Source: Sipunculus nudus (Eukaryota > Annelida > Sipuncula > Golfingiida > Sipunculidae). Taken from it: DNA of 64,000 nucleotides. Positions within the stretch are counted from its first letter, which is position 1, and each line of letters starts with the position of its first letter. Made by a program: the position numbers and the translations under genes. This document shows, one piece after another, positions 1 to 39,650 of the stretch. The notes under the pieces are model-generated. The model saw only the letters and a program-made list of their open reading frames with translations, did no database searches and had not been told where the DNA came from. The stretch lies in the NCBI GenBank assembly GCA_026874595.1, contig CM049314.1, positions 2,567,318 through 2,631,317 on the forward strand, given 5' to 3'.

Positions 1-116
1 ATGAAGCCTCTCAAATGTTTCATCAAACTTGTGAAAATGAAAAAAAAGGTTTTTCGTCTTAAATACGACACGGTATTTAGACGAATACTTGGTAATGTGA
101 CGCTACTCTGGAGAGT
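1..116. other. unique flank of satellite with border hairpin
   Basis: The first 116 bases do not carry the 46-bp satellite monomer, so the left border of the array lies inside the window. They hold a hairpin at 54-84: a 13-nt arm (54-66) pairs with a 12-nt arm (73-84) with one bulged base and the 6-nt loop GACACG. It stands about 33 bases from the first monomer. No coding potential is visible. The hairpin could be a leftover transposon end or a breakage hotspot that seeded the array; this is inference. Confidence 0.6.
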
Positions 117-1030
117 GGTACATGACTTACAGATAGCAGCACCTATGTCACAGGAACACATAAGAAACTAACGTTCCGAAGGAAGCACCAATATCCCAGG
201 TAATCAGAAGTACATGACGTACAGATAGCAGCATGTATGTCACAGGTACTCTACAGTTCATGACTCACAGATAGCAGCACCTACGTCACAGGAACACATT
301 AGTAACTAACGTTCCGAAGGAAGCACAAATATCCCAGGTAATCAGAAGTACATGACGTACAGATGGCAGCATGTATGTCACAGGTACACTACAGTTCATG
401 ACTCACAGATAGCAGCACCTACGTCACAGGAACACATTAGTAACTAACATTCCGAAGGAAGCAACAATATCCCAGGTAATCAGAAGTACATGACGTACAG
501 ATAGCAGCATGTATGTCACAGGTACACTACAGTTCATGACTCACAGATAGCAGCACCTACGTCACAGGTACACAAAAGTTATTGACTCACAGATAACAGC
601 ACCTACGTCACAGGAACACATTAGTAACTAACGTTCCGAAGGAAGCACCAATACCACAGTTAATCAGAAGTACATGACGTACAGATAGCAGCATGTATGT
701 CACAGGTACACTACAGTTCATGACTCACAGATAGCAGCACCTACGTCACAGGTACACAAAAGTTCATGACTCACAGATAGCAGCACCTACGTCACAGGAA
801 CACATTAGTAACTAACGTTCCGAAGGAAGCACCAATATCCCAGGTAATCAGAAGTACATGACGTACAGATAGCAGCATGTATGTCACAGGTACACTACAG
901 TTCATGACTCACAGATAGCAGCACCTATATCACAGGAACACATAAGTAACTAACGTTCCAAAGGAAGCACCAATATCCAAGGTAATCAGAAGTGCATGAC
1001 GTACAGATAGCAGCATGTATGTCACAGGTA

Positions 1031-4000
1031 AACTACAGTTCATGACTCACAGATAGCAGCACCTACGTCACAGGAACACATATGTAACTAACGTTCCGAA
1101 GGAAGCTACAATATCCCAGGTAATCAGAAGTACATGACGTACAAAACAGCATGTATGCCACAAGTACACTACAGTTCATAACTCACAGATAGCAGCACCT
1201 ACGTCACAGGTACACAAAAGTTCATGACTCACAGATAGCAGCACCTACGTCACAGGAACACATTAGTAACTAACGTTCCGAAGGAAGCACCAATATCCCA
1301 GGTAATCAGAAGAACATGAAGTACAGATAGCAGCATGTATGTCACAGGTACACTACAGTTCATGACTCACAGATAGCAGCACCTACGTCACAGGAACACA
1401 TTAGTAACTAACGTCCCAAAGGAAGCACCTTATCCCCGGTAATCAGAAGTACATGACGTACTGATAGCAGCATGTATGTTACAGGTACACAAAAGTTCAT
1501 GACTCACAGATAGCAGCACCTACGTCACAGGTACACAAAAATTCATGACTCACAGATAGCAGCACCTACGTCACAGGAACATAAAAGTAACTAACGTTCC
1601 GAAGGAAGCACCAATATCCCAGGTAATCAGAAGTACATGACGTACAGAGAGCAGCATGTATGTCACAGGTACACACAAATTCATGACTCACAGAGAGCAG
1701 CACCTACGTCACAGGAACACATTAGTAACTAACGTTCCAAAGGAAGCACCAATATCCAAGGTAATCAGAAGTACATGACGTACAGATAGCAGCATGTATG
1801 TCACAGGTACACATAAGTTCATGACTCACAGATAGAAGCACCTATGTCACCGGAACACATTAGTAACTAACGATCCGAAGGAAGCACCAATATCCCAGGT
1901 AATCAGAAGTAGATGACGTACAGATAGCAGCATGTATGTCACAGGTACACAAAAGTTCATGACTCACAGATAGCAGCACCTACGTCACAGGAACACACAA
2001 GTAACTAACGTTCCGAAGGAAGCATCAATATCCCAGGTAATCAGATGTACATGTCGTATAGATAACAGCATGTATGTCACAAACACTACAGTTCATGACA
2101 CCCAGATAGCAGCACCTACGTCACAGGTACACAAAAGTTCATGACTCACAGATAGCAGCACCTATATCACAGGAACACATAAGTAACTAACGTTCCAAAG
2201 GAAGCACCTGATCCCAGGTAATCAGAAGTACATGACGGACAGATAGCAGCATGTATGTCACAGGTACACAAAAGTTCATGACTCACAGATAGCAGCACCT
2301 ACGTCACAGGTACACAAAAGTTCATGACTCACAGATAGCAGCACCTACGTCACAGGAACACATTAGTAACTAACGTTCCGAAGGAAGCACCAATATCCCA
2401 GGTAATCAGAAGTACATGACGTACAGATAGCAGCATGTATGTTACAGGTACACAAAAGTTCATGACTCACAGATAGCAGCACCTACGTCACAGGTACACA
2501 AAAATTCATGACTCACAGATAGCAGCACCTACGTCACAGGAACACAAAAGTAACTAACGTTCCGAAGGAAGCACCAAATCCCAGGTAATAAGTAGTACGT
2601 GTCGTACAGATAGCAGCATGTATGTCACAGGTACACTACAGTTCATGACTCACAGATAGCAGCACCTACGTCACAGGAACACAAAAGTAACAAACGTTCC
2701 AAAGGAAGCACCAATATCCCAGGTAATCAGAAGTACATGACGTACAGATAGCAGCATGTATGTCACAGGTACACCCAAATTCATGACTCACAGAGAACAG
2801 CACCTATATCACAGGAACACATTAGTTACTAACGTTCCGAAGGAAGCACCAATATCCCAGGTAATCAGAAGTACATGACGTACAGATAGCAGCATGTAAG
2901 TCACAGGTACACAAAAGTTCATGACTCACAGATAGCAGCACCTATGTTACCGGAACACATTAGTAACTAAAGATCCGAAGGAAGCACCAATATCCCAGGT
3001 AATCAGAAGTAGATGACGTACAGATAGCAGCATGTATGTCACAGGTACACAAAAGTTCATGACCCATAGATAGCAGCACCTATGTCACCGGAACACACAA
3101 GTAACAAACGTTCCGAAGGAAGCACCAATATCCCAGGTAATCAGATGTACATGACGTACAGATAAGAGCATGTATGTTACAGGTACACAAAAGTTCATGA
3201 CTCACAGATAGCAGCAAATACGTCACAGGTACACAAAAATTCATGACTCACAGATAGCAGCACCTACGTCACAGGAACACAAAAGTAACTAACGTTCCGA
3301 AGGAAGCACCATATCCCAGGTAATAAGTAGTACGTGACGTACAGATAGCAGCATGTATGTCACAGGTACACTACAGTTCATGACTCACAGATAGCAGCAC
3401 CTACGTCACAGGAACACATAAGTAACCAACGTTCCGAAGGAAGCACCATATCCCAGGTAATAAGTAGTACGTGATGTACAGATAGCAGCATGTATGTCAC
3501 AGGTACACAAAAATTCATGACCAACATATAGCATCACCTATGTCACAGGAACACACAAGTAACTAACGTTCCGAAGGAAGCACCAATATCCCAGATAATC
3601 AGATGTACATGACGTATAGATAACAGCATGTATGTTACAGGTACACAACAGTTCATGACTCACAGATAGCAGCACCTACGTCACAGGTACACAAAAGTTC
3701 ATGACTCACAGATAGCAGCACCTATATCACAGGAACACATAAGTAACTAACGTTCCAAAGGAAGCACCTTATCCCAGGTAATCAGAAGTACATGACGTAC
3801 AGATAGCAGCATCTATGTCACAGGTACACAAAAGTTCATTACTCACAGATAGCAGCACCTACGTCACAGGAACACATAAGTAACTAACATCCCAAAGGAA
3901 GCACCTTATCCCAGGTAATCAGAAGTACATGACGTACAGATAGCAGCATGTATGTGACAGGTACACAAAAGTTCATGACTCACAGATAGCAGCACCTACG

Positions 4001-7000
4001 TCACAGGTACACAAAAGTTCATGACTCACAGATAGCAGCACCTACGTCACAGGAACACATTAGTAACTAACGTTCCGAAGGAAGCACCAATATCCCAGGT
4101 AATCAGAAGTACATGACGTACATTTAGCAGCATGTATGTTACAGGTACACAAAAGTTCATGACTCACAGATAGCAGCACCTACGTCACAGGTACACAAAA
4201 ATTCATGACTCACAGATAGCAGCACCTACGTCACAGGAACAAAAAAGTAACTAACGTTCCGAAGGAAGCACCATATCCCAGGTAATAAGTAGTACGTGAC
4301 GTACAGATAGCAGCATGTATGTCACAGGTACACTACAGTTCATGACTCACAGATAGCAGCACCTACGTCACAGGAACACATAAGTTACAAACGTTCCGAA
4401 GGAAGCACCAATATCCCAGGTAATCAGAAGTACATGACGTACAGATAGCAGCATGTATGTCACAGGTACACACAAATTCATGACTCACAGAGAGCAGCAC
4501 CTATATCACAGGAACACATTAGTAACTAACGTTCCCAAGGAAGCACCAATATCCCAGGTAAACAGAAGTACATGACGTACAGATAGCAGCATGTAAGTCA
4601 CAGGTACACAAAAGTTCATGACTCACAGATAGCAGCACCTATGTAACCGGAACACATTAGTAACTAACGATCCGAAGGAAGCACCAATATCCCAGGTAAT
4701 CAGAAGTAGATGACGTACAGATAGCAGCATGTATGTCACAGGTACACAAAAGTACATGACCCATAGATAGCAGCACCTATGTCACCGGAACACACAAGTA
4801 ACTAACGTTCCGAAGGAAGCACCAATATCCCAGGTAATCAGATGTACATGACGTACAGATAACAGCATGTATGTCACAGGTACACTACAGTCCATGACTC
4901 ACAGATAGCAGCACCTACGTCACAGGTACACAAAAGTTCATGACTCACAGATAGCAGCACCTATATCACAGGAACACATAAGTAACTAACGTTCCAAAGG
5001 AAGTACCAATATCCCAGGTAATCAGAAGTACATGACGTACAGATAGCAGCATGTATGTCACAGGTACACTACAGTTCATGACTTACAGATAGCAGCACAT
5101 ACGTCACAGGTACACAAAAGTTCATGACTCACAGATAGCAGCACCTACGTCACAGGAACACATTAGTAACTAACGTTCCGAAGGAAGCACCAATATCCTA
5201 GGTAATCAGAAGTACATGACGTACAGATAGCAGCATGTATGTCACAGGTACACTACAGTTCATGACGTACACATAGCAACATGTATGTCACAGGTACACA
5301 AAAGTTCATGACTCACAGATGGCAGCACCTATGTCACAGGAACACATTAGTAACTAACGTTCCGAAGGAAGGACCAATATCCCAGGTAATCAGAAGTACA
5401 TGACGTACAGATAGCAGCATGTATGTCACAGGTACACTACAGTTCATGACTCACAGATAGCAGCACCTACGTCACTGGTTCACAAAAGTTCATGACTCAC
5501 AGATAGCAGCACCTATATCACAGGAACACATAACTAACTAACGTTCCGGCGGAAGCACCAATATCCCAGGTAATCAGAAGTACATGACGTACATATAGCA
5601 GCATGTATGTCACAGGTACACTACAGTTCATGACTCACAGATAGCAGCACCTACGTCACAGGTTCACAAAAGTTCATGACTCACAGATAGCAGCACCTAC
5701 GTCACAGGAACACATTAGCAACTAACATTCCGAAGGAAGCATCAATATCCCAGGTAATCAGAAGTACAAGACGTACAGATAGCAGCATGTATGTAACAGG
5801 TACACTACAGTACATGACTCATAGATAGCAGCACCTGCGTCAAAAGTACACAAATGTTCATGACTCACAGATAGCAGCACCTAGTTCACAGGAACACATA
5901 AGTAACTATCGTTCCGGAGGAAGCACCAATATCCCAGGTAATCAGAAGTACATGACGTACAGATGGCAGCATGTATGTCACAGGTACACTACAGTTCATG
6001 ACTCACAGATAGCAGCACCTACTTCACAGGTACACAACAGTTCATGTCTTACAGATAGCAGTAGCTATGTCACAGGTACACACACGTACATGACGTACAG
6101 GTATCAGCATATATGTCACAGGTAAACAGAAGTACATGACGTTCAAAAAGATTCGCCTTTAACCAGGTACAAATGAATACCTAATGTTCAAGTAGCAGCA
6201 CCTATAATACAGGTACGCATAAATAACTGACGTTCATATAACAGCACCTATGTCACAGGTAAACTTAAGTAACTAACATTCTGATAGCGGCACCTATGTC
6301 ATAAGTACACATAAGTACCTAACGTACTGATAGCAGCAGATATGTCACAGGTTCATATGAGTACCTAACTTACAGATTGTAGCACCTATGTCCCAGGTAA
6401 ACTTAAGCATCTAACATTCCGATAGCGGCACCTATGTCCCAGGTAAACATGAGTTCATGAGGTACAGATGGCAGTGCCTATGTCACAGGGGCACACAAGT
6501 ACCTAAAGTTCAGATGGCAGCACCTATGTCACAGGTATACATAAGTAGATGACGATCATATCATATACCAGCTAGTATGTCACAGGTACACATTAGTACC
6601 TAGCCTTCAAATCGCAGCACTTATATCACTTTTACACAAAAATTCATGACGTACAGATAGCAGCACCTATGTCACAGGTACACATAAGTAAATTATGTTT
6701 ATATAGCAGCACCTGTGTCACAGGTACACTGGAGTATCTAACGTTAAGATAACAGCACCTATGCTCAGGTTCACATTAGTACCTAACGTTTACATAGCAA
6801 CACCCATGTCACAGGAACACATAAGTACCTGACGTACTGACAGCAGCACTTATGTCACAGGTATATATATATATATATATAAGTACATAACGTTCAGATA
6901 GCAGCACCTATGTCACAGGTATATATAAGTACCTAACGTTCAGATTGCAGCACCTATGTCCCAGGTAAACACGAGTTCATGAGGTACAGATGGCAGTGCC

Positions 7001-7524
7001 TATGTCACAGGGGCACACAAGTACCTAAAGTTCAGATGGCAGCACCTATGTCACAGGTATACATAAGTAGATGATGATCATATCATATACCAGCTAGTAT
7101 GTCACACGTACACATTAGTACCTAGCCTTCAAATCGCAGCACTTATATCACTTTTACACAAAAATTCATGACGTACAGATAGCAGCACCTATGTCACAGG
7201 TTCACAAAAGTTCATGACTCACAGATAGCAGCACCTACGTCACAGGAACACATTAGCAACTAACATTCCGAAGGAAGCACCAATATCCCAGGTAATCAGA
7301 AGTACATGACGTACAGATAGCAGCATGTATGTAACAGGTACACTACAGTACATGACTCATAGATAGCAGCACCTACGTCAAAAGTACACAAATGTTCATG
7401 ACTCACAGATAGCAGCACCTAGTTCACAGGAACACATAAGTAACTATCGTTCCGGAGGAAGCACCAATATCCCAGGTAATCAGAAGTACATGACGTACAG
7501 ATAGCAGCATGTATGTCACAGGTA
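1031..7524. repeat. 6,494-bp satellite super-unit, copy 1
   Basis: Distinctive private variants in this copy recur exactly 6,494 bases later: AACTACAG at 1031 and 7525, AGAACATGAA at 1311 and 7805, and AAGTACATAA after the TA tract at 6881 and 13375. The upstream breakpoint is near 990-1031, where copy similarity stops. Only about five single-site differences between the copies were noticed by eye (near 1177, 1648, 1705, 5172 and 5830). Confidence 0.9.
5661..7198. repeat. 1,538-bp intermediate satellite unit, copy 1
   Basis: The unit starts at GGTTCACAAAAGTTCATGAC (5661), which recurs at 7199, an offset of 1,538. About 310 bases of a second copy follow (7199 to about 7510) before the next 6.5-kb unit begins. 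The unit carries one short A-B-C stretch and then diverged monomers, a (TA)n tract and two copies of a roughly 240-bp block around 6437-6690 and 6965-7200. Confidence 0.85.
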
Positions 7525-10500
7525 AACTACAGTTCATGACTCACAGATAGCAGCACCTACGTCACAGGAACACATATGTAACTAACGTTCCGAAGGAAGC
7601 TACAATATCCCAGGTAATCAGAAGTACATGACGTACAAAACAGCATGTATGCCACAAGTACACTACAGTTCCTAACTCACAGATAGCAGCACCTACGTCA
7701 CAGGTACACAAAAGTTCATGACTCACAGATAGCAGCACCTACGTCACAGGAACACATTAGTAACTAACGTTCCGAAGGAAGCACCAATATCCCAGGTAAT
7801 CAGAAGAACATGAAGTACAGATAGCAGCATGTATGTCACAGGTACACTACAGTTCATGACTCACAGATAGCAGCACCTACGTCACAGGAACACATTAGTA
7901 ACTAACGTCCCAAAGGAAGCACCTTATCCCCGGTAATCAGAAGTACATGACGTACTGATAGCAGCATGTATGTTACAGGTACACAAAAGTTCATGACTCA
8001 CAGATAGCAGCACCTACGTCACAGGTACACAAAAATTCATGACTCACAGATAGCAGCACCTACGTCACAGGAACATAAAAGTAACTAACGTTCCGAAGGA
8101 AGCACCAATATCCCAGGTAATCAGAAGTACATGACGTACAGATAGCAGCATGTATGTCACAGGTACACACAAATTCATGACTCACAGAGAGCAGCACCTA
8201 TATCACAGGAACACATTAGTAACTAACGTTCCAAAGGAAGCACCAATATCCAAGGTAATCAGAAGTACATGACGTACAGATAGCAGCATGTATGTCACAG
8301 GTACACATAAGTTCATGACTCACAGATAGAAGCACCTATGTCACCGGAACACATTAGTAACTAACGATCCGAAGGAAGCACCAATATCCCAGGTAATCAG
8401 AAGTAGATGACGTACAGATAGCAGCATGTATGTCACAGGTACACAAAAGTTCATGACTCACAGATAGCAGCACCTACGTCACAGGAACACACAAGTAACT
8501 AACGTTCCGAAGGAAGCATCAATATCCCAGGTAATCAGATGTACATGTCGTATAGATAACAGCATGTATGTCACAAACACTACAGTTCATGACACCCAGA
8601 TAGCAGCACCTACGTCACAGGTACACAAAAGTTCATGACTCACAGATAGCAGCACCTATATCACAGGAACACATAAGTAACTAACGTTCCAAAGGAAGCA
8701 CCTGATCCCAGGTAATCAGAAGTACATGACGGACAGATAGCAGCATGTATGTCACAGGTACACAAAAGTTCATGACTCACAGATAGCAGCACCTACGTCA
8801 CAGGTACACAAAAGTTCATGACTCACAGATAGCAGCACCTACGTCACAGGAACACATTAGTAACTAACGTTCCGAAGGAAGCACCAATATCCCAGGTAAT
8901 CAGAAGTACATGACGTACAGATAGCAGCATGTATGTTACAGGTACACAAAAGTTCATGACTCACAGATAGCAGCACCTACGTCACAGGTACACAAAAATT
9001 CATGACTCACAGATAGCAGCACCTACGTCACAGGAACACAAAAGTAACTAACGTTCCGAAGGAAGCACCAAATCCCAGGTAATAAGTAGTACGTGTCGTA
9101 CAGATAGCAGCATGTATGTCACAGGTACACTACAGTTCATGACTCACAGATAGCAGCACCTACGTCACAGGAACACAAAAGTAACAAACGTTCCAAAGGA
9201 AGCACCAATATCCCAGGTAATCAGAAGTACATGACGTACAGATAGCAGCATGTATGTCACAGGTACACCCAAATTCATGACTCACAGAGAACAGCACCTA
9301 TATCACAGGAACACATTAGTTACTAACGTTCCGAAGGAAGCACCAATATCCCAGGTAATCAGAAGTACATGACGTACAGATAGCAGCATGTAAGTCACAG
9401 GTACACAAAAGTTCATGACTCACAGATAGCAGCACCTATGTTACCGGAACACATTAGTAACTAAAGATCCGAAGGAAGCACCAATATCCCAGGTAATCAG
9501 AAGTAGATGACGTACAGATAGCAGCATGTATGTCACAGGTACACAAAAGTTCATGACCCATAGATAGCAGCACCTATGTCACCGGAACACACAAGTAACA
9601 AACGTTCCGAAGGAAGCACCAATATCCCAGGTAATCAGATGTACATGACGTACAGATAAGAGCATGTATGTTACAGGTACACAAAAGTTCATGACTCACA
9701 GATAGCAGCAAATACGTCACAGGTACACAAAAATTCATGACTCACAGATAGCAGCACCTACGTCACAGGAACACAAAAGTAACTAACGTTCCGAAGGAAG
9801 CACCATATCCCAGGTAATAAGTAGTACGTGACGTACAGATAGCAGCATGTATGTCACAGGTACACTACAGTTCATGACTCACAGATAGCAGCACCTACGT
9901 CACAGGAACACATAAGTAACCAACGTTCCGAAGGAAGCACCATATCCCAGGTAATAAGTAGTACGTGATGTACAGATAGCAGCATGTATGTCACAGGTAC
10001 ACAAAAATTCATGACCAACATATAGCATCACCTATGTCACAGGAACACACAAGTAACTAACGTTCCGAAGGAAGCACCAATATCCCAGATAATCAGATGT
10101 ACATGACGTATAGATAACAGCATGTATGTTACAGGTACACAACAGTTCATGACTCACAGATAGCAGCACCTACGTCACAGGTACACAAAAGTTCATGACT
10201 CACAGATAGCAGCACCTATATCACAGGAACACATAAGTAACTAACGTTCCAAAGGAAGCACCTTATCCCAGGTAATCAGAAGTACATGACGTACAGATAG
10301 CAGCATCTATGTCACAGGTACACAAAAGTTCATTACTCACAGATAGCAGCACCTACGTCACAGGAACACATAAGTAACTAACATCCCAAAGGAAGCACCT
10401 TATCCCAGGTAATCAGAAGTACATGACGTACAGATAGCAGCATGTATGTGACAGGTACACAAAAGTTCATGACTCACAGATAGCAGCACCTACGTCACAG

Positions 10501-13500
10501 GTACACAAAAGTTCATGACTCACAGATAGCAGCACCTACGTCACAGGAACACATTAGTAACTAACGTTCCGAAGGAAGCACCAATATCCCAGGTAATCAG
10601 AAGTACATGACGTACATTTAGCAGCATGTATGTTACAGGTACACAAAAGTTCATGACTCACAGATAGCAGCACCTACGTCACAGGTACACAAAAATTCAT
10701 GACTCACAGATAGCAGCACCTACGTCACAGGAACAAAAAAGTAACTAACGTTCCGAAGGAAGCACCATATCCCAGGTAATAAGTAGTACGTGACGTACAG
10801 ATAGCAGCATGTATGTCACAGGTACACTACAGTTCATGACTCACAGATAGCAGCACCTACGTCACAGGAACACATAAGTTACAAACGTTCCGAAGGAAGC
10901 ACCAATATCCCAGGTAATCAGAAGTACATGACGTACAGATAGCAGCATGTATGTCACAGGTACACACAAATTCATGACTCACAGAGAGCAGCACCTATAT
11001 CACAGGAACACATTAGTAACTAACGTTCCCAAGGAAGCACCAATATCCCAGGTAAACAGAAGTACATGACGTACAGATAGCAGCATGTAAGTCACAGGTA
11101 CACAAAAGTTCATGACTCACAGATAGCAGCACCTATGTAACCGGAACACATTAGTAACTAACGATCCGAAGGAAGCACCAATATCCCAGGTAATCAGAAG
11201 TAGATGACGTACAGATAGCAGCATGTATGTCACAGGTACACAAAAGTACATGACCCATAGATAGCAGCACCTATGTCACCGGAACACACAAGTAACTAAC
11301 GTTCCGAAGGAAGCACCAATATCCCAGGTAATCAGATGTACATGACGTACAGATAACAGCATGTATGTCACAGGTACACTACAGTCCATGACTCACAGAT
11401 AGCAGCACCTACGTCACAGGTACACAAAAGTTCATGACTCACAGATAGCAGCACCTATATCACAGGAACACATAAGTAACTAACGTTCCAAAGGAAGTAC
11501 CAATATCCCAGGTAATCAGAAGTACATGACGTACAGATAGCAGCATGTATGTCACAGGTACACTACAGTTCATGACTTACAGATAGCAGCACATACGTCA
11601 CAGGTACACAAAAGTTCATGACTCACAGATAGCAGCACCTACGTCACAGGAACACATTAGTAACTAAAGTTCCGAAGGAAGCACCAATATCCTAGGTAAT
11701 CAGAAGTACATGACGTACAGATAGCAGCATGTATGTCACAGGTACACTACAGTTCATGACGTACACATAGCAACATGTATGTCACAGGTACACAAAAGTT
11801 CATGACTCACAGATGGCAGCACCTATGTCACAGGAACACATTAGTAACTAACGTTCCGAAGGAAGGACCAATATCCCAGGTAATCAGAAGTACATGACGT
11901 ACAGATAGCAGCATGTATGTCACAGGTACACTACAGTTCATGACTCACAGATAGCAGCACCTACGTCACTGGTTCACAAAAGTTCATGACTCACAGATAG
12001 CAGCACCTATATCACAGGAACACATAACTAACTAACGTTCCGGCGGAAGCACCAATATCCCAGGTAATCAGAAGTACATGACGTACATATAGCAGCATGT
12101 ATGTCACAGGTACACTACAGTTCATGACTCACAGATAGCAGCACCTACGTCACAGGTTCACAAAAGTTCATGACTCACAGATAGCAGCACCTACGTCACA
12201 GGAACACATTAGCAACTAACATTCCGAAGGAAGCATCAATATCCCAGGTAATCAGAAGTACAAGACGTACAGATAGCAGCATGTATGTAACAGGTACACT
12301 ACAGTACATGACTCATAGATAGCAGCACCTACGTCAAAAGTACACAAATGTTCATGACTCACAGATAGCAGCACCTAGTTCACAGGAACACATAAGTAAC
12401 TATCGTTCCGGAGGAAGCACCAATATCCCAGGTAATCAGAAGTACATGACGTACAGATGGCAGCATGTATGTCACAGGTACACTACAGTTCATGACTCAC
12501 AGATAGCAGCACCTACTTCACAGGTACACAACAGTTCATGTCTTACAGATAGCAGTAGCTATGTCACAGGTACACACACGTACATGACGTACAGGTATCA
12601 GCATATATGTCACAGGTAAACAGAAGTACATGACGTTCAAAAAGATTCGCCTTTAACCAGGTACAAATGAATACCTAATGTTCAAGTAGCAGCACCTATA
12701 ATACAGGTACGCATAAATAACTGACGTTCATATAACAGCACCTATGTCACAGGTAAACTTAAGTAACTAACATTCTGATAGCGGCACCTATGTCATAAGT
12801 ACACATAAGTACCTAACGTACTGATAGCAGCAGATATGTCACAGGTTCATATGAGTACCTAACTTACAGATTGTAGCACCTATGTCCCAGGTAAACTTAA
12901 GCATCTAACATTCCGATAGCGGCACCTATGTCCCAGGTAAACATGAGTTCATGAGGTACAGATGGCAGTGCCTATGTCACAGGGGCACACAAGTACCTAA
13001 AGTTCAGATGGCAGCACCTATGTCACAGGTATACATAAGTAGATGACGATCATATCATATACCAGCTAGTATGTCACAGGTACACATTAGTACCTAGCCT
13101 TCAAATCGCAGCACTTATATCACTTTTACACAAAAATTCATGACGTACAGATAGCAGCACCTATGTCACAGGTACACATAAGTAAATTATGTTTATATAG
13201 CAGCACCTGTGTCACAGGTACACTGGAGTATCTAACGTTAAGATAACAGCACCTATGCTCAGGTTCACATTAGTACCTAACGTTTACATAGCAACACCCA
13301 TGTCACAGGAACACATAAGTACCTGACGTACTGACAGCAGCACTTATGTCACAGGTATATATATATATATATATAAGTACATAACGTTCAGATAGCAGCA
13401 CCTATGTCACAGGTATATATAAGTACCTAACGTTCAGATTGCAGCACCTATGTCCCAGGTAAACACGAGTTCATGAGGTACAGATGGCAGTGCCTATGTC

Positions 13501-14018
13501 ACAGGGGCACACAAGTACCTAAAGTTCAGATGGCAGCACCTATGTCACAGGTATACATAAGTAGATGATGATCATATCATATACCAGCTAGTATGTCACA
13601 CGTACACATTAGTACCTAGCCTTCAAATCGCAGCACTTATATCACTTTTACACAAAAATTCATGACGTACAGATAGCAGCACCTATGTCACAGGTTCACA
13701 AAAGTTCATGACTCACAGATAGCAGCACCTACGTCACAGGAACACATTAGCAACTAACATTCCGAAGGAAGCACCAATATCCCAGGTAATCAGAAGTACA
13801 TGACGTACAGATTGCAGCATGTATGTAACAGGTACACTACAGTACATGACTCATAGATAGCAGCACCTACGTCAAAAGTACACAAATGTTCATGACTCAC
13901 AGATAGCAGCACCTAGTTCACAGGAACACATAAGTAACTATCGTTCCGGAGGAAGCACCAATATCCCAGGTAATCAGAAGTACATGACGTACAGATGGCA
14001 GCATGTATGTCACAGGTA
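7525..14018. repeat. 6,494-bp satellite super-unit, copy 2
   Basis: This is the direct tandem duplicate of 1031-7524 at constant offset 6,494. Even the TA microsatellite has the same 19-nt length in both copies (6862-6880 and 13356-13374). Similarity to copy 1 fades near 13997, where the sequence switches to the next 1,538-bp unit. Such identity implies either a very recent unequal crossover or a duplicated path in the assembly. Confidence 0.88.
12155..13692. repeat. 1,538-bp satellite unit, copy 2
   Basis: This is the counterpart of 5661-7198 inside the second 6.5-kb super-unit (offset 6,494). It is followed directly by another copy, as shown by the CAGATGG variant at 12454 and 13992 (offset 1,538). 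Confidence 0.85.
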
Positions 14019-14890
14019 CACTACAGTTCATGACTCACAGATAGCAGCACCTACTTCACAGGTACACAACAGTTCATGACTTACAGATAGCAGTAGCTAT
14101 GTCACAGGTACACACACGTACATGACGTACAGGTATCAGCATATATGTCACAGGTAAACAGAAGTACATGACGTTCAAAAAGATTCGCCTTTAACCAGGT
14201 ACAAATGAATACCTAATGTTCAAGTAGCAGCACCTATAATACAGGTACGCATAAATAACTGACGTTCATATAACAGCACCTATGTCACAGGTAAACTTAA
14301 GTAACTAACATTCTGATAGCGGCACCTATGTCATAAGTACACATAAGTACCTAACGTACTGATAGCAGCAGATATGTCACAGGTTCATATGAGTACCTAA
14401 CTTAAAGATTGTAGCACCTATGTCCCAGGTAAACTTAAGCATCTAACATTCCGATAGCGGCACCTATGTCCCAGGTAAACATGAGTTCATGAGGTACAGA
14501 TGGCAGTGCCTATGTCACAGGGGCACACAAGTACCTAAAGTTCAGATGGCAGCACCTATGTCACAGGTATACATAAGTAGATGACGATCATATCATATAC
14601 CAGCTAGTATGTCACAGGTACACATTAGTACCTAGCCTTCAAATCGCAGCACTTATATCACTTTTACACAAAAATTCATGACGTACAGATAGCAGCACCT
14701 ATGTCATAGGTACACATAAGTAAATTATGTTTATATAGCAGCACCTGTGTCACAGGTACACTGGAGTATCTAACGTTAAGATAACAGCACCTATGCTCAG
14801 GTTCACATTAGTACCTAACGTTTACATAGCAACACCCATGTCACAGGAACACATAAGTACCTGACGTACTGACAGCAGCACTTATGTCAC

Positions 14891-14927
<37 letters not shown>

Positions 14928-15242
14928 TACATAACGTTCAGATAGCAGCACCTATGTCACAGGTATATATAAGTACCTAACGTTCAGATTGCAGCACCTA
15001 TGTCCCAGGTAAACACGAGTTCATGAGGTACAGATGGCAGTGCCTATGTCACAGGGGCACACAAGTACCTAAAGTTCAGATGGCAGCACCTATGTCACAG
15101 GTATACATAAGTAGATGATGATCATATCATATACCAGCTAGTATGTCACACGTACACATTAGTACCTAGCCTTCAAATCGCAGCACTTATATCACTTTTA
15201 CACAAAAATTCATGACGTACAGATAGCAGCACCTATGTCACA
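13693..15242. repeat. 1,538-bp satellite unit, copy 3, TA tract expanded by 12
   Basis: It continues copy 2 at offset 1,538 up to the TA tract (GCAGCACTT at 13337 and 14875) and at offset 1,550 after it (AAGTAC at 13375 and 14925). The difference is a 12-nt longer TA run at 14894-14924. After about 15242 the order breaks: a partial unit, a short A-B-C block (15421-15720) and a diverged unit (15720-17340) follow. Confidence 0.82.
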
Positions 15243-17355
15243 GGTACACATAAGTACATGATGTTTAAATAGCAGCACCTGTGTCACAGGTACACTGGAG
15301 TATCTAACGTTAAGATAACACCACCTATGCTCAGGTTCACATTAGTACCTATCGTTTACATACCAACACCCATGTCACAGGAACACATAAGTACCTGACG
15401 TACTGACAGCAGCACCTATGTCACAGGTACACATAAGTAACTAACGTTCCGAAGGAAGCCCCAATATCCCAGGTAATCAGAAGTACATGACGTACAGATA
15501 GCAGCATGTATGTCACGGGTACACTACAGTTCATGACTCACAGATAGCAGCACATACGTCACAGGTACACAAAAATTCATGACACACAGATAGCAGCACC
15601 TACGTCACAAGAACACATTAGTAACTAACGTTCCGAAGGAAGCACCAATATCCCAGGTAATCAGAAGTACATGACGTACAGATGGCAGCATGTATGTCAC
15701 AGGTACACTACAGTACATGACTCATAGATAGCAGCACCTACGTCACAGGTACACAACAGTTCATGACTTACAGATAGCAGTAGCTATGTCACAGGTACAC
15801 ACAATTACATGACGTACAGGTATCAGCATATATGTCACAGGTAAACAAAAGTACATGACGTTCAAAAAGAAGCGCCTTTAACCAGGTACAAATGAATACC
15901 TAATGTTCAAGTAGCAGCACCTAAAATACAGGTACGCATAAATAACTGATGTTCATATAACAGCACCTATGTCACAGGTAAACTTAAGTAACTAACATTC
16001 CGATAGCGGCACCTATGTCATAGGTACACATAAGTACCTAACGTACTGATTGCAGCAGATATGTCACAGGTTCATATGAGTACCTAACTTACAGAGTGTA
16101 GCACCTATGTTACAGGTAAACTTAAGTAACTAACATTCCGATAGCGGCACCTATGTCCCAGGTAAACATGAGTTCATGAGGTACAGATGGCAGTCCCTAT
16201 GTCATAGGGGCACATAAGTACCTAAAGTTCAGATGGAAGCACCTATGTCACAGGTATACATAAGTAGATGACGATCATATCATATACCAGCTAGTATGTC
16301 ACAGGTACACATTAGTACCTAGCCTTCAAATCGCAGCACTTATATCACTTTTACACAAAAATTCATGACGTACAGATAGCAGCACCTATGTCACAGGTAC
16401 ACATAAGTACATGATGTTTATATAGCAGCACCTGTGTCACAGGTACACTGGAGTATCTAACGTTAAAATAACAGCACCTATGCTCAGGTTCACATTAGTA
16501 CCTAACGTTTACATAGCAACACCCATGTCACAGGAACACATAAGTACCTGACGTACTGACAGCAGCACCTATGTCACAGGTACACATGTCACCTAACGTT
16601 TATAAAGCAGCACTTATGTCACAGGTATATATATATATATATATATATAAGTACATAACGTTCAGATAGCAGCACCTATGTCACAGGTATATATAAGTAC
16701 CTAACGTTCAGATTGCAGCACCTATGTCCCAGGTAAACACGAGTTCATGAGGTACAGATGGCAGTGCCTATGTCACAGGGGCACATAAGTACCTAAAGTT
16801 CAGATGGCAGCACCTATGTCACAGGTATACATAAGTAGATGAAGATCATATCATATACCAGCTAGTATGTCACAGGTACACATTAGTACCTAGCCTTCAA
16901 ATCGCAGCACTTATATCACTTTTACACAAAAATTCATGACGTACAGATGGCAGCACCTATGTCACAGGTACACATAAGTACATAATATTTATATAGCAGC
17001 ACCTGTGTCACAGGTACACTGGAGTATCTAACGTTCAGATAACAGCACCTATGCTGAGGTTCACATTAGTACCTAACGTTTACATAGCAGCACCCATGTC
17101 ACAGGAACACATAAGTACCTGACGTACTGACAGCAGCACCTATGTCACAGGTACACATGTCACCTAACGTTTAGGAAGCAGCACTTATGTCATAGAGATA
17201 TATAAGTACTTAACGTTCAGATAGCAGCACCTATGTCACAGGTATATATAAGTACCTAGCGTTCAGATTGCAGCACCTATGTCCCAGGTAAACATGAGTT
17301 CCTAACGTTCAGATTGTAGCACCTATGTCACAGGTACACAGGAGTATGTAACGTT

Positions 17356-19323
17356 GTTAAACACGAGCTAAGCCCGCAGAAAATTCTAAATATTTGATCC
17401 CCCCCCCCTCTAAATGACTTCGCGTTTGAACATGCGAGTTTAGTTTAGTTGTGTTAGTAAACGAAAGGTGTCAGCATTCTTCCGCTTGGTTACATCGTTT
17501 CCGCAAAATACACTTAGTAAATGCGGCATTGATTCGGGTAAAGTCCACTGTGTATTCGTTTGTTTAGGGAGTGTGTTACATTACCTGTTGATCACTGACT
17601 ACACGGTTCATGGTACTCATGAATGTCTGAAATGTCGTGTTGTACCCCTGTTTGGTAAGAACATAATATTTTCTCTTGGTCTGCACCACAGGTACTTCCG
17701 CTAGTACCGACATACGCATAATACTCAACAGTTTTTACATTTCGATTTAAGATTACGCTGTCGTCTCAAAGCTTATGAGGTTTTGCGAAATCACATGCGT
17801 GACAAAACACGCAGTCATTGAAGGGGCGGATTCAAAACGTTTAGAGGTAATGTGAGACTTGTAAAAGTTTATCGTTATCATTATATATTCAGGAACAGAA
17901 AGCCCAGGGGGGGCAACATGCTTTTGATAACATACAATTAGGATGGAATAACCGTAGCTATATCCCATATTAAGTGTGGTTGAAACAATGAAGAATGATG
18001 TATTAAAAAAAGGGTCACCGACGGGTAGCGCAGGGTTTTATAGACAAGCTCTAAAAGTTGTTCAGTGTATCAAGACAGGCTCTAAAACCAATGGTCTGCT
18101 TCTTATAAAAATACGACACTTGTCAGACATGCTTTCTCAGAGCTTGAAGGATTGTACACATATACATTTTTTCTATAATATGACAACGATTGATGGGGGC
18201 CTGGGTCCCTCCTTCAGAAAATTGGTAAATTAGAAGGCCGTAAACGCCACCTTCCGGCTCCACAGAAACAAACTGAAGAATTTTTCATTCGTTATCGTAA
18301 CTTTATTGAGTAAATTTAGATATATGAGTAGATTTTATAAGACATCGAATGTGCAATCTGGCTTTTATTTAAATCTCGCTACTTTACAAAGCCAAAAATG
18401 TGTTAACTTATTATAAATATACTTATATATAATTATAAATACCTAATTTACAAATAGTACCAAATGGGATTGTTCATGGTGTATTTGAAGATATTTTAAG
18501 CACATTATGTAGCATTATTCACAAGTCGGCTAAAAAAGTTATCGGTGAATCAGGGGCGCGACCCCCAACACCTATGCCCAACCAACCCCCGATCCCCCCC
18601 CCCCCTTAGACTGACCCAAACCCCTTATGATTAGTAAGAATCTGAATGTCAAACCCATCATCCCAACACACACATGCACATACACACATTTTATGAGCAA
18701 AAAACGAAAAGTTGGCTTCAAAGACATAAATTAATGGAAGGCGTCAGTTTGACTTGGTGGTTTTGACCTCAACATTTGGTTGTTATGGCCTACCTCTGTA
18801 CAATTTCGTTTCGTAACCTAACAGCAGGTGGCACCATAACTGTGAGCAAAATGTACTACACGAAGACGTCGGTCGCGCCCGTTGAAAATATGAAAGTTAT
18901 TGTACCCTTGTTAAACCTGATGACGAAAGCTTATCTTGGCCTCCTTTAAAAAAACATAAATCATCATATCCGCTGTTTTTATCTAGCGGACAAAAATGCA
19001 AACCCCTGATGTTTTAGTTTTGAAACTGCCACATTGTATAATGATTTCCACACTAGTGAGTCACCTCTTCTCAGCCTATACTTCAATGATATACTTATAT
19101 TTTCATATGGAACCTCTTTTTCTACATTTCACTGCAATATTTTTTGTTTTTGTTTCATAGCTTACCTGCTCATGTTTCAGCAGTAATTTATGCCATTTTA
19201 CTTTGTTTTCATGAAAATATATCCGAAAGAAAAAAAATCATCCAAGTTACAATGTTCCGAACGATTATATGTTTTCGTTTATACTACCCGTCAATTATAA
19301 TTGTAACCTTTTTCAGATTACCA
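17356..19323. other. non-coding stretch between satellite and TRIM-like gene
   Basis: There is no convincing gene. Short open frames at 17468-17704 and 17976-18233 begin at non-ATG codons and show no domain. Poly-C runs occur at 17400-17408 and near 18592-18605. The end of the stretch (about 19240-19320) is AT-rich with a pyrimidine tract and CAG just before 19319. That is a plausible 3' splice site, so the TRIM-like coding exon may follow a 5' UTR intron. Confidence 0.6.
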
Positions 19324-21249
19324 ATGGCTACTGGGCCGGAAGTTGATCTCCTTCATTGCTCGATTTGCTTCGAGCGAAAAGAGAAGAGAAATCCCCGCGT
19401 CCTCGGCTGCCAGCATACCTTCTGTCAACGATGCTTAGAAACATGGCATTTAGAAAATATTCCTGGTCGCAGGGGATATATTCAATGTCCTATGTGTAGA
19501 AAGGAAACCAAGATCCCTTCTGGAGGAATCAAGTCTCTGCCGCTGGACTTCAGACTGGAAGAGGTTGCTTCAATTGTGCAGAATAGTAATAAGAAAACAT
19601 ACTGTCAGCCGTGCTCCTACAAGTCCAGAAATCGTTTAGTGACCGCTGTCTGCAAAACATGCTCTGGGCGTTTCTGTGAAGCCTGTTCTAAACAACATAT
19701 TCAGAACAAGATCTTTACAACACATGTTCTTGAGAGAGATTTATGTGACGAACACAAATCAGCTTTGGAGTATTTCTGTATAACATGCATGAAGGGTATT
19801 TGTGTAGAATGCATTTGGTCTGACGCACACATTGACCATCGGAATGAAGATAAGATTACCGGGGCCGCTGAAGTAAGGTCGAAATGTTCACAAAAGGTAG
19901 AAGAAATAAAACAACTAATTGCCGGAACAGCAAATTAAACAAGAACAAAATATCAAATGTATGAGGATCACCAAAAGCAGGTAGAAAGACAGCTCAGAGC
20001 GACGTGTGAACAGTTGAAACAGAGAATTGATAAACTGTGTGATGAGTGTATCTGTAAACATAACAAGACACACACAGCTAATTTGAAGGACATCTTTAAG
20101 GAACCTACTGAGGATTGTGTCAAGGGAATGGAAGTGGTTAACGCCACAGAGGACGTTCTGAGGGACGCTAGTCACGGGAATATAAAAGAACTGGGCCATG
20201 TTTGGACACTGCTTGAAGGCGCTTGTGGTCCTTTATATGCAGCATCTGATGCTGTTCGGAGACATCATCCCGATTTACTGTCGACCGAGTGCTGCTCCTG
20301 GAGTGGTCTTGATAATATCATTACGAAGCTTGAGAGATGTGAAGTCAACTGTGGTTTGAATAAATCTGTTTTTCAGTGGGAAGCTGAGCCACGTTTCGAG
20401 GAAATATTTCATGCAAAAAGCTACGATGACAACTCCCTTGATATTTATTTCATACACGGATTAGCTGTACTCCAGGATGGAACTGCGGTTGTTAATACAG
20501 ACAGGACGGTCATGAAAATTTACAAAGATAAAAAAACCGAGTTGGTTTATAAGAATGATGATGTCAACATTGGAGCACACTTTGTACATGGAGACGACAT
20601 ATACTTTGCTCCACTTGATGGAAAGTCTCTGGTGAAAAGTTCTCCCGGAAAAGACGCTGAAATTTTGAAATGGGAGCCTGCAATGCCTGTCCCGAAAGGT
20701 ATATGTATTGATGGAAACAAGGTGTATATTTTACATCAGGAGGGACTAATTAGTGCGTCATTGTCAGGTGAGAACAAAAAAGAAATAGTGCGTGGGAAGT
20801 CATTTTTATCAAACTTGCGTGTTAAAATTGATGGCACTTCCCACAACATAATTACTAAAGCGGACCCCGACAGTGGTTACTACCTCGACGATGATGACGA
20901 TGATAAATATGAAAGATGTGGCTTGCAACTTCGTCACACTTGCGTTATCTATGATGACAACGGTACTGAACTGATGACGTTTGACCGCAGTGACGAAGAT
21001 GAATCCGTTTGCGATAGACCTAACCCAATAGCCCTGCTGCCCAATGGTAATATACTGCTGGTTAATTTTGTGGGAGATAAACTAGAGGAGCGCCAACTTG
21101 ACGGCAAACTCGTCAGGGATATTCAACCAGAGGGACTGGCAAGACCAGTTGAAATAGCCTATATGTGTCCATATTTATGGGTCTATAGTGAGTTTTACGG
21201 GCATGATACCACATCCACCATCAGATGTTTAAAGTTACAGAACCATTAA
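19324..21249 (+). CDS. TRIM-type RING/B-box protein with propeller-like tail, split by an in-frame stop
   Basis: This is a probable E3 ubiquitin ligase of the TRIM family. The ATG at 19324 follows a likely acceptor and precedes a C3HC4 RING: Cys12-x2-Cys15, Cys29-x-His31, Cys34-x2-Cys37 and Cys55-x2-Cys58. A B-box-1-like zinc motif and a B-box 2 (CDEH..C..C..C..C..H..H) follow within the first 204 residues. Codon 205 (19936-19938) is TAA. The same frame then stays open for about 437 codons to 21249: a coiled coil rich in Glu, Lys and Gln, then repeated beta-strand segments with Asp-Gly turns resembling an NHL-like propeller, including an acidic run of six Asp. Known TRIMs use the RING for E2 binding and the C-terminal domain for targets. 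The domain order is that of TRIM2/3/56-like genes, which are expanded in molluscs. The single stop means a recent pseudogene, readthrough or a sequence error. No splice sites bracket it. Confidence 0.85.
19936..19938 (+). other. in-frame TAA between B-box and coiled coil
   Basis: This TAA lies in the frame of both the 204-codon RING/B-box part and the 430-codon coiled-coil/propeller part that restarts at the ATG at 19957. The 18 bases between stop and ATG are open in that frame and look coding. No GT or AG boundary exists that could splice the stop out. No other disruption was seen in the gene. Confidence 0.9.
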
Positions 21250-27363: not shown

Positions 27364-29528
27364 ACTCAAATTTGACAACAACTAAGGCAAGTGCACTATC
27401 AAATGTTACAAATGAGACTAGTCAAGATGTACCTCAAACACAGTTTAACAATGATAAAGCATTCTTGAACCCCAATCCTTCATATGTCAAATGTGATAAA
27501 GTTGGTGGCAGGCTAAAGATTTTCACAGAGAATTGGGAAAATTTAACATCTGATAAATTCATTTTAAAGATAGTGAAAGGCATGGAGTAGGAGTTTGTAA
27601 ATCATACCATGCCAGAACAGCATTTCATTCCAAGACCCATTAAGTTCAATGATTTAGAGACAGAGATCATCAATAAGGAAATTGCCTTACTGTTAGAAAA
27701 AGGGGTAATCAAAAATGCTGTACCTGCTCCAGACACTGTTTTTTTTCAAATATCTTCATTAGAGAGAAGAGAGATGGGTCACATAGGGTCATACTTAACC
27801 TGAAATCTCTTAATGAATCAATTGAGTACCATCACTTTAAAATGGAATCCTTCCAAAATGCGGTAGACTTAGTTTCCCCAGGATGTTTTATGGCCTCAGT
27901 TGATCTCAAGGACGCTTATTATAGCGTACCTATTCATCAGGACCACCAAAGGTTTCTCACTTTTTTGTGGCAAGATCAAGCCTACCAGTTTACTTGCTTG
28001 CCCAATGGACTCGCATCCGGGCCTAGGATGTTCACAAAATTGATGAAACCTGTTTACTCTTTTCTCAGAAAACAGAGCCATATTAATGGAGCTTACATTG
28101 ATGATTCCTTTCTGATTGGGGAAAGTTTTTCGGATTGCAAAAGAAATGTGAATGAAACACTAAACTTTTTAAGGATTTAGGTTTCATAATTCATACAGAC
28201 AAATCAGTATTAGAAGCATGCACAGAAATCAAATTTCTTGGGTTCATACTCAACTCGAACACTATGACAATTTCGCTGACCAAAGATAAGGCAGATAATT
28301 TGGCCAAACAGTGTAAAATACTGATAAACAAGCCAGAAACTACTATTAGACATGTGGCAGAAATACTTGGGTATTTAGTGTCATGTTGTGCTGCTGCTAG
28401 CACCGGACCACTCAGGTGCAAGTGCTTAGAATTGGAGAAAACAAACGCCCTTAAATCTAATAAAGGGAATTTTGATGCCATTATGACAGTGTCTGAGGCA
28501 GCCAAACAGGACTTACATTGGTGGGTTGAACATGCACATTCAATTCATAAACCAATGAGACCTACCGAACCAGACTTACTCCTTAGAACAGATGCCAGCA
28601 ATTCAGGCTTGGGGGAGTCTTAGGGGATCATGATACCCATGGAACATGGAATAGCTGGGAGAGGGATCCACACATAAATTACCTTGAACTTCTGGCGGTG
28701 TTCCTAGCCTTACAGTCTTTATGTAAACCTTTAAAAGGGGTACACATAAGAGTCCAGATAGATAACACCACCGCTGTTGCTTATATTAACAAACAAGGAG
28801 GAAATAAACCAAACCTTTTCAAGCTGACCAGAAAGATCTTGGATTGGTGCCTTGCAAGAAATATCTGGATTTCAGCAACACACATCCCTGGGGTGGCTAA
28901 CCTCGAGGCTGACACATTGTCACGTCAACACAATTCAGATGCGGAATGGCAATTAGACACAGATATTTTTACAAAACTTTTAGACATCTGGGGTAGGTTA
29001 GACATAGATTTGTTTGCATCAAGAATAAATTATCAAATCAAACCTTACATCTCATGGAAGCCAGACCCAGAAGCTTTAGCAGTAGATGCTTTTTCTGTAA
29101 AATGGTCCTCATATATGTTTTATGCCTTCCCAACATTTAGCATACTGACCCAAGTGCTCAAGAAAATCAAACAGGAGCATGCAACCGGACTGGTCATGTT
29201 ACCATGGTGGACAACTCAGCCCTGGTTCCCCAGAGCAATGCGCATGTTGATAGACAACCCGAGAATCCTCCCTCCCAGTCGAATAGCACTAAGGCTCCCA
29301 CAGGACAAAGGGAGAACATACAGAATGACAAAGATGAGACTGTTAGCATGCCACTTATCAGGAAATCCCTTGAGAAACACAAATTTTCTGAAAGAACACC
29401 AGAAATTATACTCCAGTCCTGGCGAAAAACCACAAACAAGCAGTAACAAACATACTTACAGAGATGGGAACGGTACTGTCGTGAAAGGGACTTGGATCCA
29501 ATTTGTCCAGCTATTGGGAAGGCAGTAG
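27360..29528 (+). pseudogene. DIRS reverse transcriptase / RNase H with C-terminal extension, broken
   Basis: RT motifs are readable in order: RDGSHRVILNLKSLN (about 27772-27816), SVDLKDAYYSVP (27897 on), the FTCLPNGLASGP block, and the catalytic YIDD at 28094-28105. The RNase H region shows a TDASNSGLG core (about 28590) and IDNTTAVAYINKQGG (28760 on). An extension follows with DLFASR and SWKPDPEALAVDAFS, typical of DIRS after RNase H. Damage: in-frame TAG at 27588, frameshift at the T-run near 27740, frameshift near 28168, and another near 28613 within a G-run. The last part overlaps the recombinase frame, as in other DIRS elements. Confidence 0.9.
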
Positions 29529-30304
29529 ATTTTTTTACTTTACTTTATGACCAGAAATTGGGCTACAGTGCAACTAACACAGCGAGGTCTGCACTATCAG
29601 CTGTACTGCAACTGCCTGAGGGAGTGTCTTTCGGAAGTCACCCCATGGTTACCAGATTTATTAAGGGGGTAATTCAATTACGGCCTGCTCTTCCGAAAAC
29701 TTTGGTCACATCGGATACAGAAGTTGTGTTAAATCACATGAGAAAAATGGGTCGAGTAAAATCACTCACACTTAAACAACTGTCATAAAAATTGCTGACA
29801 CCCCTAGCATTACTGACGGGACAGAGAGGCCAGTTCTTACACCTTATTTTTCTGGACAATCTAACTGTCTCCTCATCACATGTCAAAATTCGCATGGGGG
29901 ACCTGGTAAAACAGTCTTCACCAAGAAATCACCAGTCTGAAATTACATTAAAAGCATATGCACCAGACAAAAGACTGTGTATAGTGACAGTGATAAAAGA
30001 ATACATAGAAAGGACTAAAACCCTGAGAGGAAGTGAGAAAAAACTGTTCATTAAACTTAATGGACAACATAGTGGTGTTTCTAGAGACACTATTTCTAGA
30101 TGGCTCAAAGATGCACTCAGTGAAGCTGGCATAGACATGACCATCTTTACACCACACAGCACAAGAGCTGCGGCTACTACATCAGCAGCAAACCAAAATC
30201 ACGTGCCTCTTGATACTATACTTAAAACAGCTGGCTGGTCGTCTCAATCAACGTTTACAAAATATTATAATAAACCTGTGACTGCTACTAGTAACCTAAA
30301 TTGA
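29204..30304 (+). pseudogene. DIRS tyrosine recombinase with two in-frame stops
   Basis: Frame 2 carries the recombinase, probably from the ATG at 29348. The catalytic signature is visible: Arg in TGQRGQ (about 29820), HSTR (about 30155-30166), Trp in AGWSSQ, and the Tyr nucleophile in FTKYYNK (about 30260). The N-terminal core-binding part is at about 29350-29700. Stops TAA at 29444-29446 and 29786-29788 break an otherwise continuous frame. The enzyme would integrate the circular DNA copy by strand exchange without target duplication. The 3' end of the gene abuts the internal complementary region. Confidence 0.9.
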
Positions 30305-38815: not shown

Positions 38816-38819
38816 TTGT

Positions 38820-39650
38820 GGTCCCTGTTGATAAACATTAGGGCCTACAGCTCTGTTTGCTTCTGGTCAATTTTGATAAACATTAGGGCCTACAGCTCTG
38901 TTTGCTTCTGGTCCCTGTTGATAAACATTAGGACCTACAGCTCTGTTTGCTTCTGGTTCCTGTTGATAAAAATTAGGGCCTACAGCTCTGTTTGCTTCTG
39001 GTCAATGTTGATAAACATTAGGGCCTACAGCTCTGTTTGCTTCTGGTCCCTGTTGATAAACATTATGGCCTACAGCTCTGTTTGCTTCTGGTCCCTGTTG
39101 ATAAACATTAGGGCCTACAGCTCTGTTTGCTTCTGGTCCCAGTTGATAGGCATTAGGACCTACAGCTCTGTTTGCTTCTGGTCCCTGTTGATAAACATTA
39201 GGGCCTACAGCTCTGCTTCTGGTCAATGTTGATAAACATGAGGGCCTACAGCTCTGTTTGCTTCTGGTCAATGTTGATAAACATTAGGACCTCCAGCTCT
39301 GTTTGCTTCTGGTCCCCGTTGATAAACATTAGGGCCTACAGCTCTGTTTGCTTCTGGTCCCTGTTGATAAACATTAGGGCCTACAGCTCTGTTTGCTTCT
39401 GGTCCCTGTTGATAAACATTAGGGCCTACAGCTCTGTTTGCTTCTGGTCCCTGTTGATAAACATTAGGGCCTACAGCTCTGTTTGCTTCTGGTCCCTGTT
39501 GATAAACATTAGGGCCTACAGCTCTGTTTGCTTCTGGTCCATGTGGATAAACATTAGGGCCTACAGCTCTGTTTGCTTCTGGTCAATGTAGATAAACATT
39601 AGAGCCTACTGCTCTGTTTGCTTCTGGTCCCTGTTGATAAATATGATGGC
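38820..39650. repeat. 45-bp minisatellite, ~18 copies, open in both directions
   Basis: The unit is GGGCCTACAG-CTCTGTTTGC-TTCTGGTCCC-TGTTGATAAACATTA (45 bp), tandem about 18 times with point variants. At least two more degenerate units follow up to about 39770. Because 45 is a multiple of three, 15-residue repeats appear on both strands (plus: INIRAYSSVCFWS; minus: NRAVGPNVYQQGPEA). A 4-base deletion near 39214 splits the plus-strand frame. There is no start context or flanking exon evidence, so coding is unlikely. Confidence 0.93.

Follow-up and report, generated by a model that had tools for sequence, protein, structure and literature searches.

We describe here a 64,000-nucleotide stretch of the Sipunculus nudus genome (contig CM049314.1 of assembly GCA_026874595.1, here contig C9, positions 2567318-2631317) and, within it, a tandem array of 46-bp monomers that lies upstream of a TRIM-like gene. 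The whole stretch is called the window; coordinates without a prefix are those of the window, and L001, L002, L024, L025, L028, and L030 denote neighbouring pieces. The assembly searched is the window's own genome (1.43 Gb, 153 contigs). We consider the array to be probably a single-locus, non-coding minisatellite of the variable number tandem repeat (VNTR) type, which grew in place from one 46-bp sequence of an intergenic module that lies upstream of the TRIM gene. Below we set out its internal order, its confinement to one locus, and a single unexpanded counterpart in a paralogous gene unit, and afterward weigh this reading against its alternatives.

Structure of the array

Tandem Repeats Finder reports period 46 in two stretches, 118-14895 and 14923-17355, which are separated by a (TA)16 run. 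A wrap-around alignment of 118-17343 yields 377 segments, 328 of which (87%) are exactly 46 bp long and 27 of which measure 45 bp; beyond these full segments, a 12-bp piece reaches up to 17355. When the array is compared with itself after a shift, identity is 0.64 at 46 bp versus 0.22 at 45 and 0.18 at 47. An earlier reading made from the sequence only had proposed strict 46-bp monomers, which is nearly right, and the different period that it named as fatal to its proposal appears neither in the repeat finder nor in the shift identities. A 46-bp unit is of minisatellite size. Inside the array, no stop-to-stop frame of at least 120 amino acids is listed and no CENP-B-box pattern was found; an Rfam scan of the window gave 0 matches at gathering score, and one 138-bp unit does not fold unusually well as DNA (z = 0.50; 131 of 200 shuffles fold equally well or better).

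With four seed types and at most eight differences allowed, the 377 monomers divide into 74 of type a, 84 of type b, 63 of type c, and 59 of type d, leaving 97 unassigned. These types build higher-order units, namely abc (138 bp) and abdc (184 bp). A pattern script caught 71 of the 73 intervals from one a monomer to the next: 33 are abc, 23 abdc, 8 abdd, and 7 others. The mutual information between neighbouring types amounts to 1.39 bits, compared with a maximum of 0.10 over 2000 shuffles, and the first 122 monomers alone give 1.40 versus 0.24 in shuffles. The monomer types thus follow a preferred order, and the random order that would have spoken against the sequence-only reading is not seen. 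That reading was also correct in letting four types alternate as 138- and 184-bp units, but not in counting only two higher-order blocks: four are found when a block is extended to all monomers no more than three places away from an a monomer (Table 1). Nor are the diverged monomers between the blocks the near-homogeneous filler it described; instead, they recur at offsets of 34, 37, 25, 13, and 12 monomers.

Table 1. Coordinates of the array, its parts, and adjoining features in the window
Feature	Position	Strand	Remarks
Left junction, AGAGTG + first monomer	112-163	+	112-160 versus L024:407-455: 44/49 bases
46-bp tandem array	118-17355	+	377 monomer segments + 12-bp end piece
Higher-order block 1	118-6085	+	abc/abdc units, 37 a monomers
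6494-bp tandem duplication core	995-7502	+	second copy 7489-13996; 7 mismatches/6508 bp
Diverged monomers, copy 1	6086-7117	+	monomer comparison
Higher-order block 2	7118-12579	+	33 a monomers; largely 6494-bp duplicate of block 1
Diverged monomers, copy 2	12580-13611	+	monomer comparison
Higher-order block 3, short	13612-14117	+	2 a monomers
Diverged monomers, copy 3	14118-15299	+	includes (TA)16 run at 14894-14925
Higher-order block 4, short	15300-15804	+	2 a monomers
Diverged monomers, copy 4	15805-17355	+	reaches right border
Right flank	17429-17887	+	possible diverged second copy of upstream module
TRIM-like gene region	19090-21249	+	RING, B-box; in-frame stop at 19936

The two large higher-order blocks are in fact one block that was copied, together with its diverged part, at an offset of 6494 bp; over the wider extent of this duplication (888-7586), identity is 99.6%. 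Shorter segments were copied as well. About 1.3 kb recurs at offset 1538 with 98.0% identity and about 1.2 kb at offset 1697 with 97.0%. At the offsets of 34, 37, 25, 13, and 12 monomers, the best runs are 35, 26, 11, 11, and 12 monomers long, with mean identities of 98.5, 94.0, 94.3, 94.5, and 88.9%, respectively. Duplication is therefore recorded at scales of 46 bp, 138/184 bp, about 0.5-0.6, 1.2, 1.5, and 1.7 kb, and 6.5 kb, of which the last, judged by identity, would be the youngest.

A single locus and an unexpanded counterpart

The 46-bp family is almost entirely confined to this one array. Searching the genome with a 23-bp core at no more than three mismatches gave 245 matches on the forward strand and 2 on the reverse; the backward control gave none on either. 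A local recount places 243 of these 247 in the array. Among the matches listed for the four that lie outside, one is a single monomer in a paralogous unit and two are on contig C1, where no extended similarity was found at E 1e-4. A 33-bp pattern (at most three mismatches) matched 61 times and a 47-bp pattern across the a-b junction 13 times, in each case only within the array. The genome-wide search that the sequence-only reading had recommended hence leaves the family in one place, except for 4 of 247 core matches. Neither many arrays nor megabase-scale ones, as a dispersed or centromeric satellite would have, turned up in these genome-wide pattern searches, and the concentration of the core matches in one array speaks against such a satellite as well as against the interior of a multi-copy transposon. 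The array is situated 2.57 Mb into the 79.8-Mb contig C9, the first 600 bases of which hold no telomere repeat.

As for the flanks, the right one (505 bp) matched only itself in the genome. The left flank was compared within 164 kb, where a piece of about 80 bp (L001:9747-9829), placed about 290 bp before the array, recurs at two other places with roughly 75% likeness, so that part of this flank is a dispersed repeat. Copies of this short repeat occur on both strands, upstream and inside the window.

The one 46-mer of note outside the array is found at C9:2537747 (approximately L024:413-457), 30 kb upstream, in a paralogous TLR/TRIM unit that we refer to as the sister unit. AGAGTG precedes both this monomer and the array. 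Used as a genome-wide query, L024:1-520 found two matches, namely itself and window 112-160 (90% over 49 bp), and among the 377 monomers, the first one of the array ties as the closest to the single monomer, together with another monomer and that monomer's 6494-bp duplicate. A single monomer behind a shared junction, in a 520-bp query that matches only itself and the first monomer, points to the sister unit as the unexpanded state. The surroundings correspond too: a degraded TRIM relative (L024:2129-2482) follows 1.7 kb past the single monomer, and roughly 2 kb separates the end of the array from the window's TRIM-like gene. Moreover, an alignment of the two units over the 230-bp part running from segment A to the 65-bp element scores 128 (shuffle maximum 53 in 200 shuffles), with 156 of 203 aligned columns identical. 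The single monomer is bounded by two GGTA words 44 bp apart; such a repeat, present at 280 of 9940 L024 positions, would be a weak hint compatible with birth by slippage.

Directly after the single monomer, the sequence shows no likeness to further monomers or to the array's right flank. We make no claim of a relation between the monomer-to-TRIM spacers of the two units, whose score of 132 compares with 130 for the best of 20 shuffles. Upstream of a third TRIM relative (L028), no 46-mer was detected, as 6 of 50 shuffles reach the best consensus match.

Genes and other arrays around the locus

The array is embedded in immune-type receptor and TRIM-like genes. TLR and TRIM relatives occur in the same order in both units, with the TLRs upstream on the minus strand, and from this arrangement the TLR(-)/TRIM(+) genes appear to form a tandemly duplicated cluster around the array. 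The Toll-like receptor gene (L002:6622-9120, minus strand) has leucine-rich repeats (LRR), a TIR domain, and an open frame of 832 amino acids; its relative 28 kb upstream (L028:8331 to L025:824) shows matches in several frames. In the TRIM-like gene of the window, the in-frame stop separates the RING/B-box part from the remainder, and the L028 relative matches both parts in a single frame.

By Pfam, the window contains a reverse transcriptase with a tyrosine recombinase, an integrase core, and the RING/B-box gene, and its neighbourhood the TIR/LRR receptor; such a set of genes points to an invertebrate. The reverse transcriptase and tyrosine recombinase lie at 27677-30304 in separate frames, and frames of similar look, judged by eye, are present at L024:6850-9472 on the minus strand. 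We take the former pair and the integrase-core gene to be of DIRS and Gypsy type, respectively. A euchromatic satellite near a TRIM-like gene, one of the options named in the sequence-only reading, fits a TLR/TRIM cluster flanking the array, whereas its mammalian, centromeric frame of reference does not suit surroundings of transposon-type and TLR/TRIM genes and an array without a CENP-B-box pattern.

A second array precedes the first. It consists of 7.4 copies of a 65-bp unit (L001:9245-9727; C9:2566562-2567044) and ends 390 bp before the 46-bp array; in the sister unit, its repeat has one match, 32 bp long, at L024:81-112. The 65-mer and the 46-mer align with a score of 31, which 4 of 200 shuffles also attained, and we do not claim that they are related.

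The right flank may be a diverged second copy of the module found upstream of the array. Its alignments score 98 against the sister unit (best of 200 shuffles, 51), 71 against the stretch that separates the 65-bp array from the 46-bp one (best of 100, 64), and 60 and 53 against the A part (best of 100, 43, and best of 200, 50, respectively), and it holds no 46-mer at up to three mismatches in the 23-bp core. When L001:8701-9320 was aligned more widely with the right flank, 57 of 200 shuffles did as well, and for the A part against the stretch between the arrays 82 of 100 did; neither result is significant. Since the narrow alignments beat shuffles and the wider one did not, this possible module copy is the least certain part of our account.

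Further arrays occur nearby. The sister unit has nine copies of an 84-bp unit (L025:7073-7828), whose relation to the 46-mer was rejected at a score of 23 that 40 of 500 shuffles attained. At 38819-39641, the window contains 18 copies of a 45-bp unit with 92% matches and two open frames that overlap, one of 153 and one of 129 codons, and C9:2504683-2506551 (L030) carries a 28-bp array of about 67 copies. Taking these arrays together, the neighbourhood looks minisatellite-rich.

Origin of the array

The simplest course of events starts with the duplication of the TLR/TRIM unit. In one copy of the unit, a 46-bp and a 65-bp element of the upstream module would then have been amplified, the first 46-bp duplication possibly arising by replication slippage between short direct repeats. 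Haber and Louis reportedly put forward such a slippage model for the origin of minisatellites. The array of 46-mers would have diverged before the ordered units arose by amplification of one trimer; longer segments may have been copied afterward, the 6.5-kb one either very recently or by an error of assembly. Unequal exchange between misaligned copies could account for the later growth. Most likely, the array has no selected function of its own, though it could influence its neighbours.

Several points weigh against this account. Genome match counts for repeats are lower bounds, very common words were skipped, and we hold to growth in place less firmly because the left flank was compared only within 164 kb and contains a recurring piece. 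In the comparison of the units, shuffles did as well as the sequence following the single monomer in 164 of 1000 and 286 of 300 cases, and the spacer from the 65-bp element to the 46-mer, aligned directly between units, scored 44, which 31 of 300 shuffles equalled. The polarity is our inference, and the single monomer could be a contracted older array. Age does not simply follow size either, as the 1.5-kb offset is better kept than those of 1.7 and 0.5 kb. Among the 37 ab units of block 1, similarity is not lost with distance (Mantel r -0.08, p 0.86), a flat relation that favours long-range segment duplication and disfavours purely local homogenisation. Finally, the near-identical 6.5-kb copy could be an assembly error.

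Alternative explanations

The last of these points leads to the alternative that survives best, although we judge it unlikely: the array is real, the 6494-bp duplication is an artefact of assembly, and the array truly measures about 10.7 kb or differs in length from allele to allele. Only 7 differences over 6508 bp, in an array that is hard to assemble, would suit such an error. The copies are nonetheless not identical, offsets 1538 and 1697 at 97-98% identity indicate that such duplications do occur here, and the rest of the structure is independent of this one.

It is improbable, in our estimation, that a conserved cis-regulatory element of the TLR/TRIM genes was amplified and kept because more copies change TRIM expression. 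Conservation between the units offers some encouragement, since the 46-mer and its adjacent 6 bp keep 44 of 49 bases and the A-to-65-bp part 156 of 203, with a spacer that is not significantly alignable. The 46-mer's excess over the module is modest, however (binomial 0.018, uncorrected), and the presumed right-flank copy can be aligned with both spacers yet lacks the 46-mer. Binding-site motifs are likewise abundant: the array has 94 TGASTCA, 162 TGACGT (both strands), and 64 TTCCNNNGGAA, compared with 2, 14, and 1 across the other 46.6 kb of the window. We presume these to be AP-1, CREB, and STAT motifs. Their high counts follow from tandem copying, and the array contains none of the fuller patterns TGACGTCA and TTCNNNGAA, of which the rest of the window has 1 and 13, respectively. 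Among the 235 monomers outside the 6494-bp duplicate, the motifs rank 24th (a), 4th (b), 36th (c), and 31st (d) in conservation among 46 rotated masks (1 being best kept); they are not better kept than other positions in types a, c, and d, and b alone is suggestive. We would give similarly little credence to a broader version, in which a shared TLR/TRIM regulatory module is being amplified piecewise, its well-kept 46-bp and 65-bp elements having grown into arrays in just one of the units, and these arrays act as multiplied sites or length-variable tuners of an immune TRIM gene. None of the function tests points clearly to a role.

It is also doubtful, to a high degree, that the array came here as the central tandem repeats of a non-autonomous transposon of the Helentron/HINE type. 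In the oyster, according to PMC7492417, satellite-like arrays are central repeats of such elements, some of which have two consecutive arrays, and here too an array of 65-bp units ends 390 bp ahead of the 46-bp one, with some 80 bp between them of which two further copies, about 75% alike, lie in the 164 kb compared. Yet at the sensitivity used, no dispersed copies of the monomer, the right flank, or the sister-unit module were found: genome-wide, the right flank has one match and the module two, and the left flank was compared within 164 kb. The terminal structures of these elements were likewise not found. In place of sub-terminal inverted repeats, the flanks share one direct and one inverted 11-mer (at most one mismatch), no excess over the 20 shuffles (3 and 6 of which equal them), and where a 3' palindrome would be expected, immediately beyond the right end of the array, there is no hairpin of at least 5 bp. 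Neither a target-site duplication of more than 3 bp nor a 9-bp word common to the 117 bp on the left and the 400 bp on the right was seen. The paralog's single monomer, for its part, favours growth in place over delivery by a transposon. Against the internal repeat of a known transposon, the remaining refutation named in the sequence-only reading, the single locus of the monomer and the few genome matches of the right flank and the sister-unit module speak indirectly.

A centromeric, heterochromatic, or piRNA-producing satellite is hardly credible, since the higher-order structure does resemble that of centromeric satellites but the array occupies one locus in 1.43 Gb, spans 17 kb, lies 2.57 Mb into its contig with genes on its flanks, and has no CENP-B-box pattern.

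Known systems and significance

Compared with alpha-satellite arrays, the array of S. nudus shares the building of higher-order units from ordered monomer types and differs in being short and single-locus, with a 46-bp monomer and no CENP-B-box pattern. Human single-locus VNTRs come closer. PMC2588610 describes ones of more than 10 kb with higher-order repeats, such as an 18-kb array at Xp22.33 with a 61-bp unit and higher-order repeats of 1.6 and about 2.5 kb. The class of unit length, the array length, the confinement to one locus, and the irregular, kilobase-scale higher-order units are alike; sequence and host differ, and here a nearby paralog has an unexpanded copy and 138/184-bp units sit within larger ones. 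In view of such irregular higher-order units in human VNTRs, the kind of array described here is already known (PMC2588610). The Cg_HINE Helentron repeats of the Pacific oyster, as portrayed in PMC7492417, are also satellite-like arrays outside classical heterochromatic satellites, in a host of probably related kind, but they are dispersed and have shared flanks, sub-terminal repeats, and a palindrome, features not found here with a left flank compared only locally.

A word search in PMC11136912 gave no higher-order or 46-bp repeat, and four monomer pieces of 12-15 bases turn up in 9 papers, none with a title that concerns this repeat. What seems uncommon is that the single-copy state is kept in a neighbouring paralogous unit, although we found no statement in the literature on the frequency of such neighbouring states.

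The birth of a satellite is usually reconstructed from arrays whose ancestor has vanished. At this locus, an unexpanded counterpart, a common junction, and layered duplications lie within about 50 kb of chromosome. With an ancestor-like copy, the junction, and the record of duplications so close together, the steps of birth and growth would be testable across individuals and related species.

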